Shown in pieces: positions 56,387 to 61,860 of a stretch of DNA of 64,000 nt (the first letter of the stretch is position 1; the number at the start of each line of letters is the position of its first letter). This stretch comes from Pricia antarctica (GTDB taxonomy: Bacteria; Bacteroidota; Bacteroidia; Flavobacteriales; Flavobacteriaceae): NCBI RefSeq assembly GCF_900101815.1, contig NZ_FNAO01000008.1, positions 212,027 to 276,026 of the forward strand. Reading direction: 5' to 3'. The notes under the pieces were generated by a model. The model was given only the letters and a program-made list of their open reading frames with translations. It was not told the DNA's origin and ran no database searches. The translations under genes and the position numbers were made by a program.

Positions 56387-57469
56387 TTAGCCGTTGATCA
56401 CCTTCTCCTGATGATTGATCGATTCTTGGTGAATGGCCTTGAAGAGTTTCAAAATAAATTCTTCGCTCAACCCCTTGGTTTCGCCTTCCAAAATCATTGC
56501 GCCCAAAATCTCGTTCCAACGGGTGGATTGCAAGACGGCTACGTTTCTTTTCTTTTTCAAGGCTCCGATACCGTCGGAAATCTTCATACGTTTCCCCATG
56601 GTTTCGATGATCTGATTATCCAGTACATCTATCTGCGCCCGTAGGTTGCTTAATTTGGTATTGTATTCCGCCTCAGGCGAACTTTCTTTTCGAATTCGCA
56701 AGTCACGCATAATCTGTTGTAAACGATCGGGAGTCACTTGCTGGGCGGCATCGCTCCAGGCATTGTCGGGATCTTGGTGGGTTTCTATCATCAGACCATC
56801 GAAATTCAGGTCTAAAGCCGTTTGGGAAACATCGAAGATCATGTCTCGCTTTCCAGTGATATGCGACGGGTCGTTAATAATGGGCAAATCGGGGAAACGG
56901 GTCTGCAGATCAATGGCCAATTGCCATTCGGGAATGTTTCTGTATTTCGATTTCTCGTAGGTTGAAAACCCGCGATGGATAACCCCTAACTTTTTGATAT
57001 TCGCGGTGTGCAAACGTTCGACCGCCCCCAACCACAAGGAAAGATCAGGGTTTACGGGATTTTTGACCAATACCACCTTATCCGTGCCTTCTAAAGCGTC
57101 TGCAATTTCCTGAACGATAAACGGACTCACCGTTGACCGTGCCCCGATCCATAACAGATCGATATCGTGTTCCAGCGCCAGCTCAACATGGGCGCGATTG
57201 GCGACTTCGGTCGCCGTTTTCATTCCTGTTTCCTTTTTGACCTTTTGTAGCCATTTGAGACCCAATGCACCAACGCCCTCAAAATTTCCGGGGCGGGTAC
57301 GGGGTTTCCAAATACCGGCGCGGTAGTAGTTGACATCGGTGTCTTTGAGGCTATTGGCGATTCCCATTACCTGTTCTTCGGTCTCCGCACTGCAAGGCCC
57401 TGCGATTACCAGTGGATGATCTAGGTTCATATCGTCTAACCACGATCTCATTTCTTTTTTGTTTTCCAT
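56387..57469 (-). CDS. bifunctional DAHP synthase / chorismate mutase
   Basis: A 360-residue fusion protein. Residues 1-265 are a KDPS/DAHP synthase type I-beta domain (GPCSAETEEQV, KPRTRPGNFEGVG, DPSHITGKRD) making DAHP from PEP and erythrose-4-phosphate. Residues 270-355 are an AroQ-type chorismate mutase (LRAQIDVLDNQIIETMGKRM). This fusion is characteristic of Bacteroidota. It is the last gene of the aromatic operon and links entry into the pathway with prephenate formation. Confidence 0.95.
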   Translation of the reverse strand: MENKKEMRSWLDDMNLDHPLVIAGPCSAETEEQVMGIANSLKDTDVNYYRAGIWKPRTRPGNFEGVGALGLKWLQKVKKETGMKTATEVANRAHVELALEHDIDLLWIGARSTVSPFIVQEIADALEGTDKVVLVKNPVNPDLSLWLGAVERLHTANIKKLGVIHRGFSTYEKSKYRNIPEWQLAIDLQTRFPDLPIINDPSHITGKRDMIFDVSQTALDLNFDGLMIETHQDPDNAWSDAAQQVTPDRLQQIMRDLRIRKESSPEAEYNTKLSNLRAQIDVLDNQIIETMGKRMKISDGIGALKKKRNVAVLQSTRWNEILGAMILEGETKGLSEEFILKLFKAIHQESINHQEKVING

Positions 57470-57577: not shown

Positions 57578-58435
57578 TCACTTATTCAAAGGTATCCCTT
57601 TCAAAATTTCCTTGATTCGGTTGGTGTCGTTCATTTCGTTGTAAATACCCTCATAATCATCATTTTCTAGCAATTGTTTGAATTCTTGGAGGTTTTGAAT
57701 GTATTCATTTAGCGTATCCAAAACATTATCCTTGTTGTGCTTAAAAATAGGCGTCCACATGGCGGGCGAGCTTTTGGCCAGGCGTACGGTGCTCTCAAAA
57801 CCACTGCCCGCCATGTCAAAAATATCGCGTTCGTTCTTCTCTTTTTCAATTACGGTCTTTCCCAACATAAAAGAACTGATGTGTGACAAATGCGACACAT
57901 AGGCAATATGCTTGTCATGCGCTTCTGGATTCATATAACAAATGCGCATACCCATCTCGTGAAAGAGATCCAAAGCTTTTTCCTGCAGTTTAAAGGCTGT
58001 TTTTTCTACTTCGCAGATGATATTCGTCTTTCCGGCGTATAAATTTTCGATGGCTGCGGATGGTCCGGAAAATTCCGTTCCGGCAATAGGATGTGCGGAC
58101 AAATAGTTTCTTCTTTTAGGATGATCCGCTACCGTTTTACAGACCAGACCTTTGGTAGAGCCACCATCGAAGACCACACAATCGTCGTTCACGGCATCCA
58201 ATATTTTGGGAAGCTCCACGACCATGGCATCCACGGGAACCATTACGATTACCATATCGGCGATATCGAGTTCGTCATAGCTCGATTTAACATCGATAAT
58301 GCCCAAAGTCAAAGCCTCCTCCTCATGCGCCGGATTGGCATCTATCCCATAAATCTTAGCTTCCGGACGTAAGCGTTTGATATCCTTTGCGAAAGAACCC
58401 CCGATCAAGCCGATACCGATAATGAAAATTTTCAT
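57578..58435 (-). CDS. prephenate dehydrogenase
   Basis: A 285-residue NAD(P)-dependent TyrA-type enzyme converting prephenate to 4-hydroxyphenylpyruvate. N-terminal Rossmann GIGLIGGSFAKD; the motif SAHPIAGTEFSGP contains the catalytic His; HKDNVLDTLNEYI lies in the C-terminal helical domain. No ACT domain. Third gene of the operon. Confidence 0.95.
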   Translation of the reverse strand: MKIFIIGIGLIGGSFAKDIKRLRPEAKIYGIDANPAHEEEALTLGIIDVKSSYDELDIADMVIVMVPVDAMVVELPKILDAVNDDCVVFDGGSTKGLVCKTVADHPKRRNYLSAHPIAGTEFSGPSAAIENLYAGKTNIICEVEKTAFKLQEKALDLFHEMGMRICYMNPEAHDKHIAYVSHLSHISSFMLGKTVIEKEKNERDIFDMAGSGFESTVRLAKSSPAMWTPIFKHNKDNVLDTLNEYIQNLQEFKQLLENDDYEGIYNEMNDTNRIKEILKGIPLNK

Positions 58436-58504: not shown

Positions 58505-59662
58505 TCAAAATCTCGCTATGGCCTCCCGAATCTTATCCTCGGTAACACAAAGCGAAAACCGGATATAGCCCTCGCCATTGCTTCCGAAAATCGTTCCGGG
58601 CGCAATGAAAATATGCTTTTCGTATAATACCTCATCGATGAATGCTTCTGAAGATTTACTTCCTTCGGGCAACTTGGCCCAAACGAACATTCCGACCGCT
58701 TCTTTATCGTAAGTGCATTGTAGCTTGTCGGCCAGTTCAAAAATCAAATCCCTTCTCTTTCTATAGACTGTATTCAATCCATCGAACCAAGCCTCAGCAC
58801 TATTCAAGGCGGTAATCGCCCCTTTCTGAATGCCGTAGAACATTCCTGAATCCATATTACTCTTCACTTTCAAAACGGCATCGAGGTGTTCGGCGTTGCC
58901 GAGAACCATGCCGACCCGCCATCCGGCCATGTTGAAGGTCTTGCTTAGGGAATTGAGTTCCAAGGCGACCTCCTTTGCGCCATCTACCGACAGAATACTC
59001 ATCGGCGTTTCATTCTGCACAAAACTATAGGGATTATCGTTGACCAGCAAAATGGAATTCCGCTTGGCAAAGGCCACTAAGTCTTCAAATTGTTTCGCAT
59101 CGGCCGTTGCTCCGGTCGGCATATGCGGATAGCTGACCCACATTAGCTTTACTTTGGACAAATCGTGTTGCTGTAAAATTTTCAAATCGGGAAACCATCC
59201 GTTTTCCTCGGATAAGTCATAATATTTAGGTACCGCCCCCACCAACTTCGTGACCGAGGTATACGTAGGATAGCCCGGATTCGGAATCAGTGCCTCATCC
59301 CCAGGGTTGAGAAAGGCCAAGCTAATGTGCATGATGCCTTCCTTAGAACCCATTAGCGGCAGTATTTCGTTCGTTGGATCGGCATGGACACCAAACTTAT
59401 CCCTATAGAATCCGGAAATGGCTTCCCGCAATTCGGGAAGTCCCTGATAGCTTTGATACTGGTGCGCCCCAGCATCTAATACGGCGTTCTGAATACTTTC
59501 TAAAATCGCTTTCGACGGCGCCAGATCGGGGCTTCCTATGCCCATGTTTATGATTGGCCGACCTTTGGCCATAAGGCCGCGAACTTCCCGCAACTTTTTT
59601 GAGAAGTAGTATTCCTCAACGGTCTGTAACCTATCCGCCGTTCGTATTTTAGAAGCTGTCAT
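58505..59662 (-). CDS. PLP-dependent aminotransferase class I/II
   Basis: A 385-residue fold-type I aminotransferase. The PLP lysine lies in LNSLSKTFNMAGWRVG; the substrate-binding region IINMGIGSPDLAPS is near the N-terminus. In this operon it most likely aminates phenylpyruvate and 4-hydroxyphenylpyruvate to Phe and Tyr; specificity is inferred from context. Its ATG overlaps the prephenate dehydratase stop by 4 bp. Confidence 0.92.
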   Translation of the reverse strand: MTASKIRTADRLQTVEEYYFSKKLREVRGLMAKGRPIINMGIGSPDLAPSKAILESIQNAVLDAGAHQYQSYQGLPELREAISGFYRDKFGVHADPTNEILPLMGSKEGIMHISLAFLNPGDEALIPNPGYPTYTSVTKLVGAVPKYYDLSEENGWFPDLKILQQHDLSKVKLMWVSYPHMPTGATADAKQFEDLVAFAKRNSILLVNDNPYSFVQNETPMSILSVDGAKEVALELNSLSKTFNMAGWRVGMVLGNAEHLDAVLKVKSNMDSGMFYGIQKGAITALNSAEAWFDGLNTVYRKRRDLIFELADKLQCTYDKEAVGMFVWAKLPEGSKSSEAFIDEVLYEKHIFIAPGTIFGSNGEGYIRFSLCVTEDKIREAIARF

Positions 59663-60486
59663 ATCCTTACATTTTTATATTCCCCCAAAACCTTAAAGTC
59701 TTCCGACATGATGTCCAACAAGGCTTTTGCCTTCTCAAAATGGGTATATCCCTCGAAAGTAACATCGACGAAAAAGGCATATTTCCATGGGGTCTCGATA
59801 ATCGGAAGGGACTGTATCTTGGTCAGGTTCAGATTACAATCGCTCATTACATTGAGCACGGCAGCCAAACTGCCGCGTTTATGGTCGGTCACGAAACGCA
59901 CGGAAGCCTTATTGATTTCCTTCTTGGGAATTACCTTGTTTTTTGTACTGACAATGATAAATCGGGTTGCATTGTTTTTAATCGTCTGAATCCGTTCCGC
60001 TACGATGTCCAAATCGTAAAGATCGGCCGCTACTTCGGGTGCGATTGCCGCAATATGCTTCAATTGCTGCTCTTGGATGCGCTTTGCAGTTTCAGCGGTA
60101 TCTACATCCTCGACTAATTTTATGTGAGGATAATCCCGGAAAAACTCCTTGCACTGCAATAAGGCCATAGGATGCGAACGTACCTCTTCGATATCGCCAA
60201 TCTTTCGTCCCTTCAGCACCATCAGGTTATGATTGATGTTCAAATAATGTTCTCCTATAATATGCAAATTGTTGTGGTACACCAATGCATAGTTGGGAAT
60301 AATGGAGCCAGCAATCGAGTTCTCAATGGCCATTACGCCCATATCGGCAGTTTTGTCCAACAATCGATCGACCAGGTAATCGAAAGACATGCTCTCGACC
60401 AGCTCGGTATCATCTCCAAAAAATTCTCGAACCACCTGATGATGGTTAGAACCTTTAATTCCCTGTATGGCTATTCTTCTTTTCAT
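59659..60486 (-). CDS. pheA: prephenate dehydratase with ACT domain
   Basis: A 275-residue enzyme converting prephenate to phenylpyruvate. The PDT domain (1-180) has the AIENSIAGSI motif and the NATRFIIV motif (TRF with the catalytic Thr). An ACT domain (about 195-275, GSLAAVLNVMSD) follows for allosteric control. In it the typical ESRP signature of Phe binding reads QSLP. First structural gene of the aromatic operon, behind a leader peptide/terminator. Confidence 0.95.
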   Translation of the reverse strand: MKRRIAIQGIKGSNHHQVVREFFGDDTELVESMSFDYLVDRLLDKTADMGVMAIENSIAGSIIPNYALVYHNNLHIIGEHYLNINHNLMVLKGRKIGDIEEVRSHPMALLQCKEFFRDYPHIKLVEDVDTAETAKRIQEQQLKHIAAIAPEVAADLYDLDIVAERIQTIKNNATRFIIVSTKNKVIPKKEINKASVRFVTDHKRGSLAAVLNVMSDCNLNLTKIQSLPIIETPWKYAFFVDVTFEGYTHFEKAKALLDIMSEDFKVLGEYKNVRI

Positions 60487-60584: not shown

Positions 60585-60613
60585 AAAAAAAAGTCCCGCT
60601 TTCGGCGGGACTT
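60585..60613 (-). terminator. attenuator terminator in the pheA leader
   Basis: On the minus strand a 9-bp perfect stem AAGTCCCGC/GCGGGACTT with loop CGAAA is followed by eight T (60585-60592). It lies about 100 nt upstream of the pheA start and 25 nt after the leader peptide stop, so it must be crossed to express the operon. The 5' arm can instead pair with GCGGGGCU (60645-60652) in the leader peptide 3' end. Confidence 0.88.
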
Positions 60614-60637
60614 CATTTGTCTATATGTTCAAATATA

Positions 60638-60709
60638 TCACAACAGCCCCGCTTCTCTTTTAAAAAAGAAGTAAAAAAAGAAACCGTTATAGAAATATTG
60701 TTTCGACAT
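60638..60709 (-). CDS. phenylalanine/tyrosine leader peptide
   Basis: A 23-codon ORF on the minus strand, ATG at 60709 to TGA at 60638-60640. It contains seven Phe and three Tyr codons, with the core GFFFYFFFKRE. The stop is followed by the attenuator terminator. Ribosome stalling at Phe (or Tyr) codons would leave the antiterminator strand free and let transcription enter pheA; with enough charged tRNA the ribosome reaches the end and covers it, and the terminator forms. This is the design of E. coli pheL. Confidence 0.88.
   Translation of the reverse strand: MSKQYFYNGFFFYFFFKREAGLL
60645..60652 (-). promoter_or_regulatory. antiterminator strand
   Basis: GCGGGGCU in the last codons of the leader peptide can form eight base pairs (one G-U) with AGUCCCGC, the 5' arm of the terminator at 60605-60612. 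The two structures are mutually exclusive. Confidence 0.75.
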
Positions 60710-60727
60710 GGTACACTTAAACTTTGG

Positions 60728-60757
60728 CTAAAGTAATAATTTTAATTATAAATCAAA
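60728..60757 (-). promoter_or_regulatory. candidate promoter of the pheA operon
   Basis: Minus strand TACTTTAG (60728-60735; one mismatch to TAnnTTTG) with TTTG (60754-60757) 18 bp upstream. It would start transcription about 15 nt before the leader peptide ATG. Confidence 0.6.
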
Positions 60758-60966: not shown

Positions 60967-61860
60967 ATGTCCATAACCGTCAAAAACATCACCAAATCCT
61001 TCCACAATCAAAAAGTACTTGACCATATCTCCTTTGAATTAAAAAAAGGAGAGATAGTAGGTTTTTTAGGGCCGAACGGGGCGGGCAAGTCTACTATGAT
61101 GAAAATTCTGACCACCTATCACCCAGCGGATGAAGGCGAGGCCAAGGTCAATTCTTTTGACGTTGTTACCGAAAGAAAGAGCGTTCAAAAAAGTATCGGA
61201 TACCTGCCCGAACACAATCCATTGTATTTGGATATGTATGTAAAAGAATATTTGGCATTTAATGCCGAAGTGTATAAAACCGATAAAAACCGGATTGCAG
61301 AGGTCATCGAACAAACGGGACTCACCTCTGAAGACCATAAAAAAATAGGACAGCTTTCCAAAGGATATCGCCAACGCGTCGGATTGGCAGCAGCGCTGTT
61401 GCACGACCCCGAAGTCTTGATCCTCGATGAACCTACAACGGGACTCGATCCTAACCAATTGTTGGAAATCAGAAAACTAATCCGCGGAATCGGTAAAGAA
61501 AAGACCATCCTACTTTCGACTCACATCATGAAAGAAGTGGAAGCCGTTTGTGACCGGGTGCTGATTATTAACAAAGGCATTTTGGTAGCGGACAAGAAAC
61601 TTTCCGACCTGCGCAACGATGAAGAACAGATTATCGAGGTGGAATTCGATTACCGGATAGAGGAAGCTTTTTTAAACCAGCTACCCCATGTTACGCGCGT
61701 AAAAAACCTTGTTGGATTCCTTTATGAAATTACCTTTGACACTTCAAAGGATATGCGACCTGCAGTTTTCGATTTTGCCCACGACAACCAACTCAAGACC
61801 TTACAGCTCAGCCGGAAAAATAGGAATTTGGAGAGTTTGTTTACAGAGTTGACCGGGTGA
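60967..61860 (+). CDS. gldA: gliding motility ABC transporter ATPase GldA
   Basis: A 297-residue ABC ATP-binding protein. Walker A GPNGAGKST (residues about 35-43), signature LSKGYRQRVG, Walker B VLILDEP and the H-loop STHIMKEV are present. A C-terminal extension of about 70 residues fits the gliding-associated GldA group. GldA works with GldF and GldG, which are not in this window. It is needed for gliding in Flavobacterium johnsoniae, though not in all relatives. The gene diverges from the pheA operon. Confidence 0.88.
   Translation: MSITVKNITKSFHNQKVLDHISFELKKGEIVGFLGPNGAGKSTMMKILTTYHPADEGEAKVNSFDVVTERKSVQKSIGYLPEHNPLYLDMYVKEYLAFNAEVYKTDKNRIAEVIEQTGLTSEDHKKIGQLSKGYRQRVGLAAALLHDPEVLILDEPTTGLDPNQLLEIRKLIRGIGKEKTILLSTHIMKEVEAVCDRVLIINKGILVADKKLSDLRNDEEQIIEVEFDYRIEEAFLNQLPHVTRVKNLVGFLYEITFDTSKDMRPAVFDFAHDNQLKTLQLSRKNRNLESLFTELTG

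Follow-up and report, generated by a model that had tools for sequence, protein, structure and literature searches.

In E. coli, the pheA gene is preceded by pheL, a leader made up of a Phe-rich ORF, alternative hairpins and a terminator, while tyrA and DAHP synthase are controlled elsewhere than at pheL. The ilvGMEDA and thrABC leaders of E. coli are multivalent, with one peptide carrying codons for several amino acids, as in the leader described below, the amino acids being other ones. Comparative surveys of attenuation by Vitreschak and colleagues in 2004 and by Lopatovskaya and colleagues in 2010 are said to have reached beyond proteobacteria. To our knowledge, transcription-translation coupling in Bacteroidota has been little studied.

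Leader genes have been described across many phyla, Bacteroidetes among them (PMC4833913), and sORFs reminiscent of attenuation peptides have been reported in Bacteroides thetaiotaomicron (PMC7366714). A 2021 study of Flavobacterium psychrophilum presents clues to leader-peptide attenuation before amino-acid operons, structured 5′ elements ahead of pheA and hisG that also occur in other genera and lack Rfam matches, and Bacteroidota translation start signals that differ from the Shine-Dalgarno type (PMC9723704). The pheA element of that study shares both family (Flavobacteriaceae) and gene with the leader analysed here and is likely the same element; the section devoted to it does not go into peptide sequence, strand assignment or covariation and stays within the family. 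The pheA motif of Actinobacteria, entered with a question mark as structured RNA in a table of PMC2864571, shares the name and belongs to another taxon. Searches of an open-access library turned up no title or abstract with a detailed account of this pheA leader. The kind of attenuator considered here is already known and has been foreshadowed in print; what is new is the joint presence of Phe and Tyr (in relatives also Trp) codons and their near-constant spacing.

The locus lies in a 64,000-nucleotide stretch of Pricia antarctica DNA (the window), with the leader and its operon on the minus strand. As in E. coli pheL (RF01859, Phe_leader), a Phe-rich ORF, alternative hairpins and a terminator stand before pheA. 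The RF01859 model aligns end to end with 31.4 bits, compared to a gathering score of 55, and so the leader would work like pheL without being, by threshold, a member of that family. It differs from pheL in carrying Tyr codons (and, in relatives, Trp codons) and in heading an operon that includes tyrA and DAHP synthase.

Leader ORF, putative promoter and predicted terminator of the pheA operon

The first gene of the operon, pheA (59659..60486, start at 60486), encodes a prephenate dehydratase (PF00800, E 1.1e-56) with an ACT domain, whose PF01842 match (E 1.1e-4) falls under its gathering score. It is followed by a class I/II aminotransferase (58505..59662, PF00155) with a probable aromatic role, for which the best NCBIfam models are below cut-off, by the prephenate dehydrogenase gene tyrA (57578..58435, NF006307 above cut-off) and by a DAHP synthase/chorismate mutase (56387..57469, PF00793 and PF01817). 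The operon supplies both Phe and Tyr as well as the enzyme that opens the pathway they share with Trp. For comparison, one genome per species was scanned, and from the loci carrying a close relative of PheA the 80 best were retained (genera Pricia, Zobellia, Maribacter, Muricauda/Flagellimonas and Muriicola, among others; the nearest relative is a Pricia MAG with 92% PheA identity). These 80 loci and the window make up the 81 near leaders. The order pheA-aminotransferase-tyrA-DAHP synthase was found in 76 of the 80 loci, and in the remaining four only the first two or three genes fall within the sequence examined.

The leader ORF, MSKQYFYNGFFFYFFFKREAGLL, is bounded by an ATG at 60709 and a TGA at 60638 (60638..60709) and has 23 codons, seven for Phe and three for Tyr. 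An ORF of 22-25 residues, at least seven of them aromatic, is present in all 81 near leaders, which encode 64 distinct peptides. Entropy in the aromatic block is 0.14, 0.36 and 0.53 at the first, second and third codon positions, a pattern as for a translated ORF, and in two leaders (L009 and L050) one Phe codon is absent with the reading frame intact. We infer from sequence that the ORF is translated. Dinucleotide shuffling of the 400 nt immediately preceding pheA in 89 other genomes produced an ORF with at least seven aromatic residues in 14 in 23 out of 1335 shuffles, and such an ORF with a terminator behind it in one out of 1335.

Upstream of the ORF there is a promoter-like stretch, TTTG-N18-TACTTTAG (60728..60757), in which TTTG at 60757-60754 is separated by an 18-nt spacer from a -7 box, TACTTTAG, at 60735-60728. 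Apart from a single base, the box agrees with the sigma-A -7 consensus TAnnTTTG, for which both sequence and position were taken from PMC9723704. In 73 of the 81 near leaders, a TAnnTT[A/T]G box lies within the 45 nt that precede the ATG of the ORF, mostly at a distance of 17-18 nt from it; in shuffles, the proportion is 7.9%. Transcription would start near 60723, leaving a 5′ UTR of about 14 nt.

Between the leader ORF and pheA, the sequence predicts an intrinsic terminator. Its 5′ arm (strand 3, AAGUCCCGC, 60605..60613) and its 3′ arm together with a T run (strand 4, 60585..60599) are both supported by covariation. AAGTCCCGC (60613-60605) and GCGGGACTT (60599-60591) form nine pairs, or ten when a G-T pair is counted, and of the eight T at 60592-60585, two pair in the 9-bp stem and six remain after it. 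The gene beyond the leader (60967-61860) is a divergent ABC-transporter gene, and the terminator can therefore act on the pheA transcript only. A hairpin with a T run was located 22-26 nt past the ORF stop in 81 of 81 near leaders. The sequence-only reading had proposed a promoter at 60728-60757, a 23-codon peptide with seven Phe and three Tyr codons from 60709 to 60638 and a 9-bp stem terminator with eight T at 60585-60613; all three can be read in the sequence, two of the T lying within the stem.

In the Flagellimonas/Allomuricauda group (L028, L036, L042, L049, L054 and others), the called terminator hairpin lies 8-9 nt before the pheA start. At this distance, the hairpin could also affect translation of pheA.

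Alternative pairing and ribosome position

Pairing was evaluated in an alignment of 57 of the 81 near leaders, 23 having been dropped as more than 96% alike and one, L035, with a 25-codon ORF, by choice. The terminator stem is paired in 99.2% of cells, with double changes in six of nine pairs, and four of five measures exceeded all 500 shuffles, the pair-type count being the one that did not. The leader of the window as a whole folds at -40.6 kcal/mol; none of 200 dinucleotide shuffles, with a mean of -27.3, folds as well (z -3.6).

The putative antiterminator strand (strand 2, GCGGGGCU, 60645..60652) occupies the last codons of the leader ORF and is supported by covariation and by recoding. 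In the window it reads GCGGGGCT (60652-60645), and GCGGGGCU and AGUCCCGC match at eight pairing positions, one of them G-U, which agrees with the earlier proposal of a strand within the ORF that pairs with the terminator 5′ arm over eight positions. In the alignment, strands 2 and 3 are paired in 90.6% of cells, with double changes in four of eight pairs; in leaders L012, L058, L031 and L033 both strands have changed together. The covariation score was above 500 of 500 shuffles, and the number of double-change pairs was reached by 11 of 500; the pair-type count was reached by 55 of 500 and hence does not go beyond shuffles. When the register was slid by 1-3 columns, at most 49% of cells paired. 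The +1 register has 14 double-change cells compared to 11 in the proposed one, yet only 46% of its cells are paired. Covarying stems, which had been suggested as a check on the attenuator, were thus found for both alternative structures.

The same strand was examined by synonymous recoding. In 69 of the 81 near leaders, the natural tail codons outperform 95% of synonymous recodings in pairing with the terminator arm, indicating that pairing, and not the peptide alone, keeps these codons as they are; 12 of the 81 fail this test at 5%; in the window, 3% of recodings pair as well as the natural strand 2. A possible protector (strand 1, 60680..60688), which pairs with 60650-60642 in the MFE fold and whose hairpin could bring about termination of untranslated leaders, was also considered. 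The strand 1:2 pairing is kept in 94.5% of cells of the 57-leader alignment, its covariation is not above shuffles, and support for the hairpin does not go beyond coding constraint.

The position of strand 2 relative to the aromatic codons is nearly constant. Counted from the first base of the final aromatic codon, it begins at 11-14 nt in 80 of the 81 near leaders, mostly at 12-13 nt, which equals one ribosome half-footprint; in L064 a better match to strand 3 lies elsewhere. We modelled a ribosome by hiding all sequence as far as 11 nt beyond the A site, folding the rest at equilibrium with this assumed footprint and scoring sequestration of strand 3 before the terminator 3′ arm is made. With a ribosome at codons 5-7 or 10-16, strand 3 was sequestered (p >0.5) in all 81 near leaders; at codon 17 this was so in 72 of 81, and at codon 18 in two. 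Varying the footprint edge from 8 to 14 nt shifts the switch by one codon either way. In the model, a stall on the regulatory codons would thus leave strand 2 free, and a ribosome that goes on to the stop codon would cover it. With no ribosome, strand 3 was sequestered in 59 of 81 near leaders before the terminator 3′ arm exists, so that read-through may occur where the leader is not translated.

On the strength of conservation, of covariation, of the choice of synonymous codons and of the geometry of the ribosome, we consider it very probable that the pheA operon is controlled by ribosome-mediated transcription attenuation, in which an antiterminator competes with the terminator as the sequence-only reading had it. 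The following sequence of events can be proposed. RNA polymerase would start about 14 nt upstream of the 23-codon ORF. When charged tRNA-Phe and tRNA-Tyr are plentiful, the ribosome would pass the aromatic codons, proceed to the end of the ORF and cover strand 2 (60652-60645), allowing strands 3 and 4 to pair and transcription to end at the T run (60592-60585). When either tRNA is uncharged, the ribosome would stall on one of the ten Phe/Tyr codons with its leading edge just short of strand 2, which would then pair with strand 3, block the terminator and permit transcription of all four operon genes, from pheA through that for DAHP synthase/chorismate mutase. This scheme presupposes ribosome-polymerase coupling, termination in the cell and a response to Phe and Tyr (and to Trp in relatives with Trp codons).

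Distribution of the leader among relatives

PheA is present in 258 of 296 genomes of a phylum sample. At the class level, 60 of the 68 PheA-matching genomes besides that of the window were examined, six of family f2 and two of family f10 (weak PheA match) being excluded. All 60 carry an aromatic leader at or near the head of the operon. Homologous leaders without the peptide or the hairpin would, according to the sequence-only reading, speak against an attenuator; the comparison with relatives did not refute it. In 56 of the 60, the leader is located before pheA, and a simple scan detected a terminator in 51; L135 and L138 have a bulged hairpin that the scan missed and that is visible in the fold.

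The other four genomes (L110-L113) at first appeared to have no leader. This was rejected, as their operon is rearranged, with the leader ahead of the DAHP synthase gene and pheA several genes further on (L180:141-236, L181:127-222 and L182:65-160, all three in reverse-complement positions, and L183:714-809). The order in the rearranged operons is leader, DAHP synthase, aroB-like, aroA-like, pheA, with an extra small gene before pheA in G273; the aroB-like and aroA-like names come from reading the translations, and for the aroA-like gene of G194 and G111 only the end before pheA was covered.

Diverged leaders allowed the spacing to be examined over a wider range, in 55 leaders (the 51 class-level ones with a script-found terminator and L140, L145, L146 and L152 from other classes). 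Strand 2 begins 9-15 nt from the last aromatic codon in 46 of them, compared to 14.9% for shuffled arms, this range having been set after the distribution was seen; nine of the 55 miss it. Counted by genus, all members are in range in 24 of 33. A covariance model built from the near set recovered 44 of 69 diverged sources with an E-value of 0.01 or lower, these values being rough.

Out of 29 genomes examined among 189 PheA-matching ones from other classes, six have the leader (L140, L145, L146, L151, L152 and, more weakly, L153). The L153 leader, recognised by eye and with a laxer scan, has six aromatic residues in 14 and a strong hairpin. A candidate in L162 passed the aromatic count and was scored negative, as its GTG start lies 567 nt upstream and a terminator is absent. 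In the six genomes with a leader, PheA is 41-46% identical to that of the window; in the other 23, with PheA 33-40% identical, a search of some 600 nt in front of pheA gave no leader; these negatives extend no further, and rearranged operons could hide one. Since among the genomes examined leaders in other classes occur only where PheA is 41-46% identical, the leader seems to follow a lineage of the operon. Its presence there may reflect either vertical retention or transfer of the operon together with its leader.

Other biosynthetic genes of P. antarctica were also inspected. On contig C20, outside the window, an apparent trp attenuator precedes trpE (L174:1325-1372), with an ORF, MIYNSIQTWWWNNFR, that has three Trp codons (...QTWWWNNFR) and a terminator-like hairpin, GGCCTGTCATCACGACAGGCC, with a T-rich tail. 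On contig C19, an apparent his attenuator precedes hisG (L171:1369-1422), with an ORF, MKNKHTYHHFYTCAQAR, that has three His codons (...KHTYHHFY) and a terminator-like hairpin (fold z -4.0). At ilvD, there is a short Ile-rich ORF, MIKKTIYTIGYQYLIIIK (L172:1290-1346), and a clear intrinsic terminator is absent.

The suggestion that a Phe system of this kind would be unusual in the phylum does not hold, given the leader in all 60 class-level relatives, the apparent trp and his leaders in the same genome and the elements reported in PMC9723704. A reading of the leader as a one-off is likewise rejected by the 60 of 60 class-level relatives examined that carry it.

Amino acids probably sensed and alternative explanations

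Pooled over the 81 near leaders, the codon counts are 538 for TTT and TTC, 234 for TAT and TAC and 49 for TGG. A Trp codon is found in 49 of the 81 (in 46 at codon 7) and in 24 of 56 diverged leaders; the window has none. Joint sensing of Phe and Tyr, proposed earlier as control shared by both end products, is likely and the likeliest reading of these data, and sensing of Trp in relatives is possible. One could suppose instead that attenuation is real and that Phe alone is sensed, Tyr and Trp codons serving a U-rich unstructured run or reflecting free exchange of aromatic residues. The excess of Phe over Tyr codons would fit this. Sensing of Phe alone is harder to reconcile with the co-occurrence of Phe and Tyr codons in all 56 diverged leaders called by the script, with an operon that supplies both end products together with the enzyme opening their common pathway, and with the frequency, in near and diverged leaders alike, of Trp, usually a rare residue. 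We regard Phe-only sensing as unlikely, though not to be neglected.

Going further, one may see in the element a class-wide sensor of Phe, Tyr and often Trp tRNA charging through one leader, with a 5′ UTR of about 14 nt and no evident Shine-Dalgarno site, which keeps its place in front of the aromatic operon even where genes are rearranged and whose codon-to-antiterminator distance is nearly fixed while peptide and hairpin diverge. To this full description we give about an even chance of being correct.

It is very improbable that the ORF encodes a functional hydrophobic peptide unrelated to the hairpin, which would then act as a constitutive terminator or a processing site. The peptide is indeed very hydrophobic, and its sequence is conserved in near relatives. 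Yet the alternative pairing covaries, the tail codons are chosen for pairing, and diverged leaders keep the aromatic codons and their spacing and lose the peptide sequence. Finally, T-boxes, amino-acid riboswitches and protein-bound attenuators also use terminator/antiterminator pairs, and a lysine-riboswitch match of 9.7 bits (gathering score 30) was obtained, but that the leader is one of these with an incidental ORF is hardly credible, as none of the 15 Rfam matches with an E-value of 10 or below is to a T-box family, no Rfam family matched at gathering threshold in 18 loci with pheA leaders (nor in the trpE and hisG loci), and the ORF fills almost all of the predicted pre-terminator transcript.

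Read as an attenuator, the pheA leader offers a clear case of ribosome-mediated attenuation in Bacteroidota, and one that appears to be old. Since all sampled class-level relatives have the leader and Rfam gives no match at threshold, the covariance model could be used to annotate many uncatalogued leader peptides. The joint Phe, Tyr and Trp codons would show a single operon balancing several end products.
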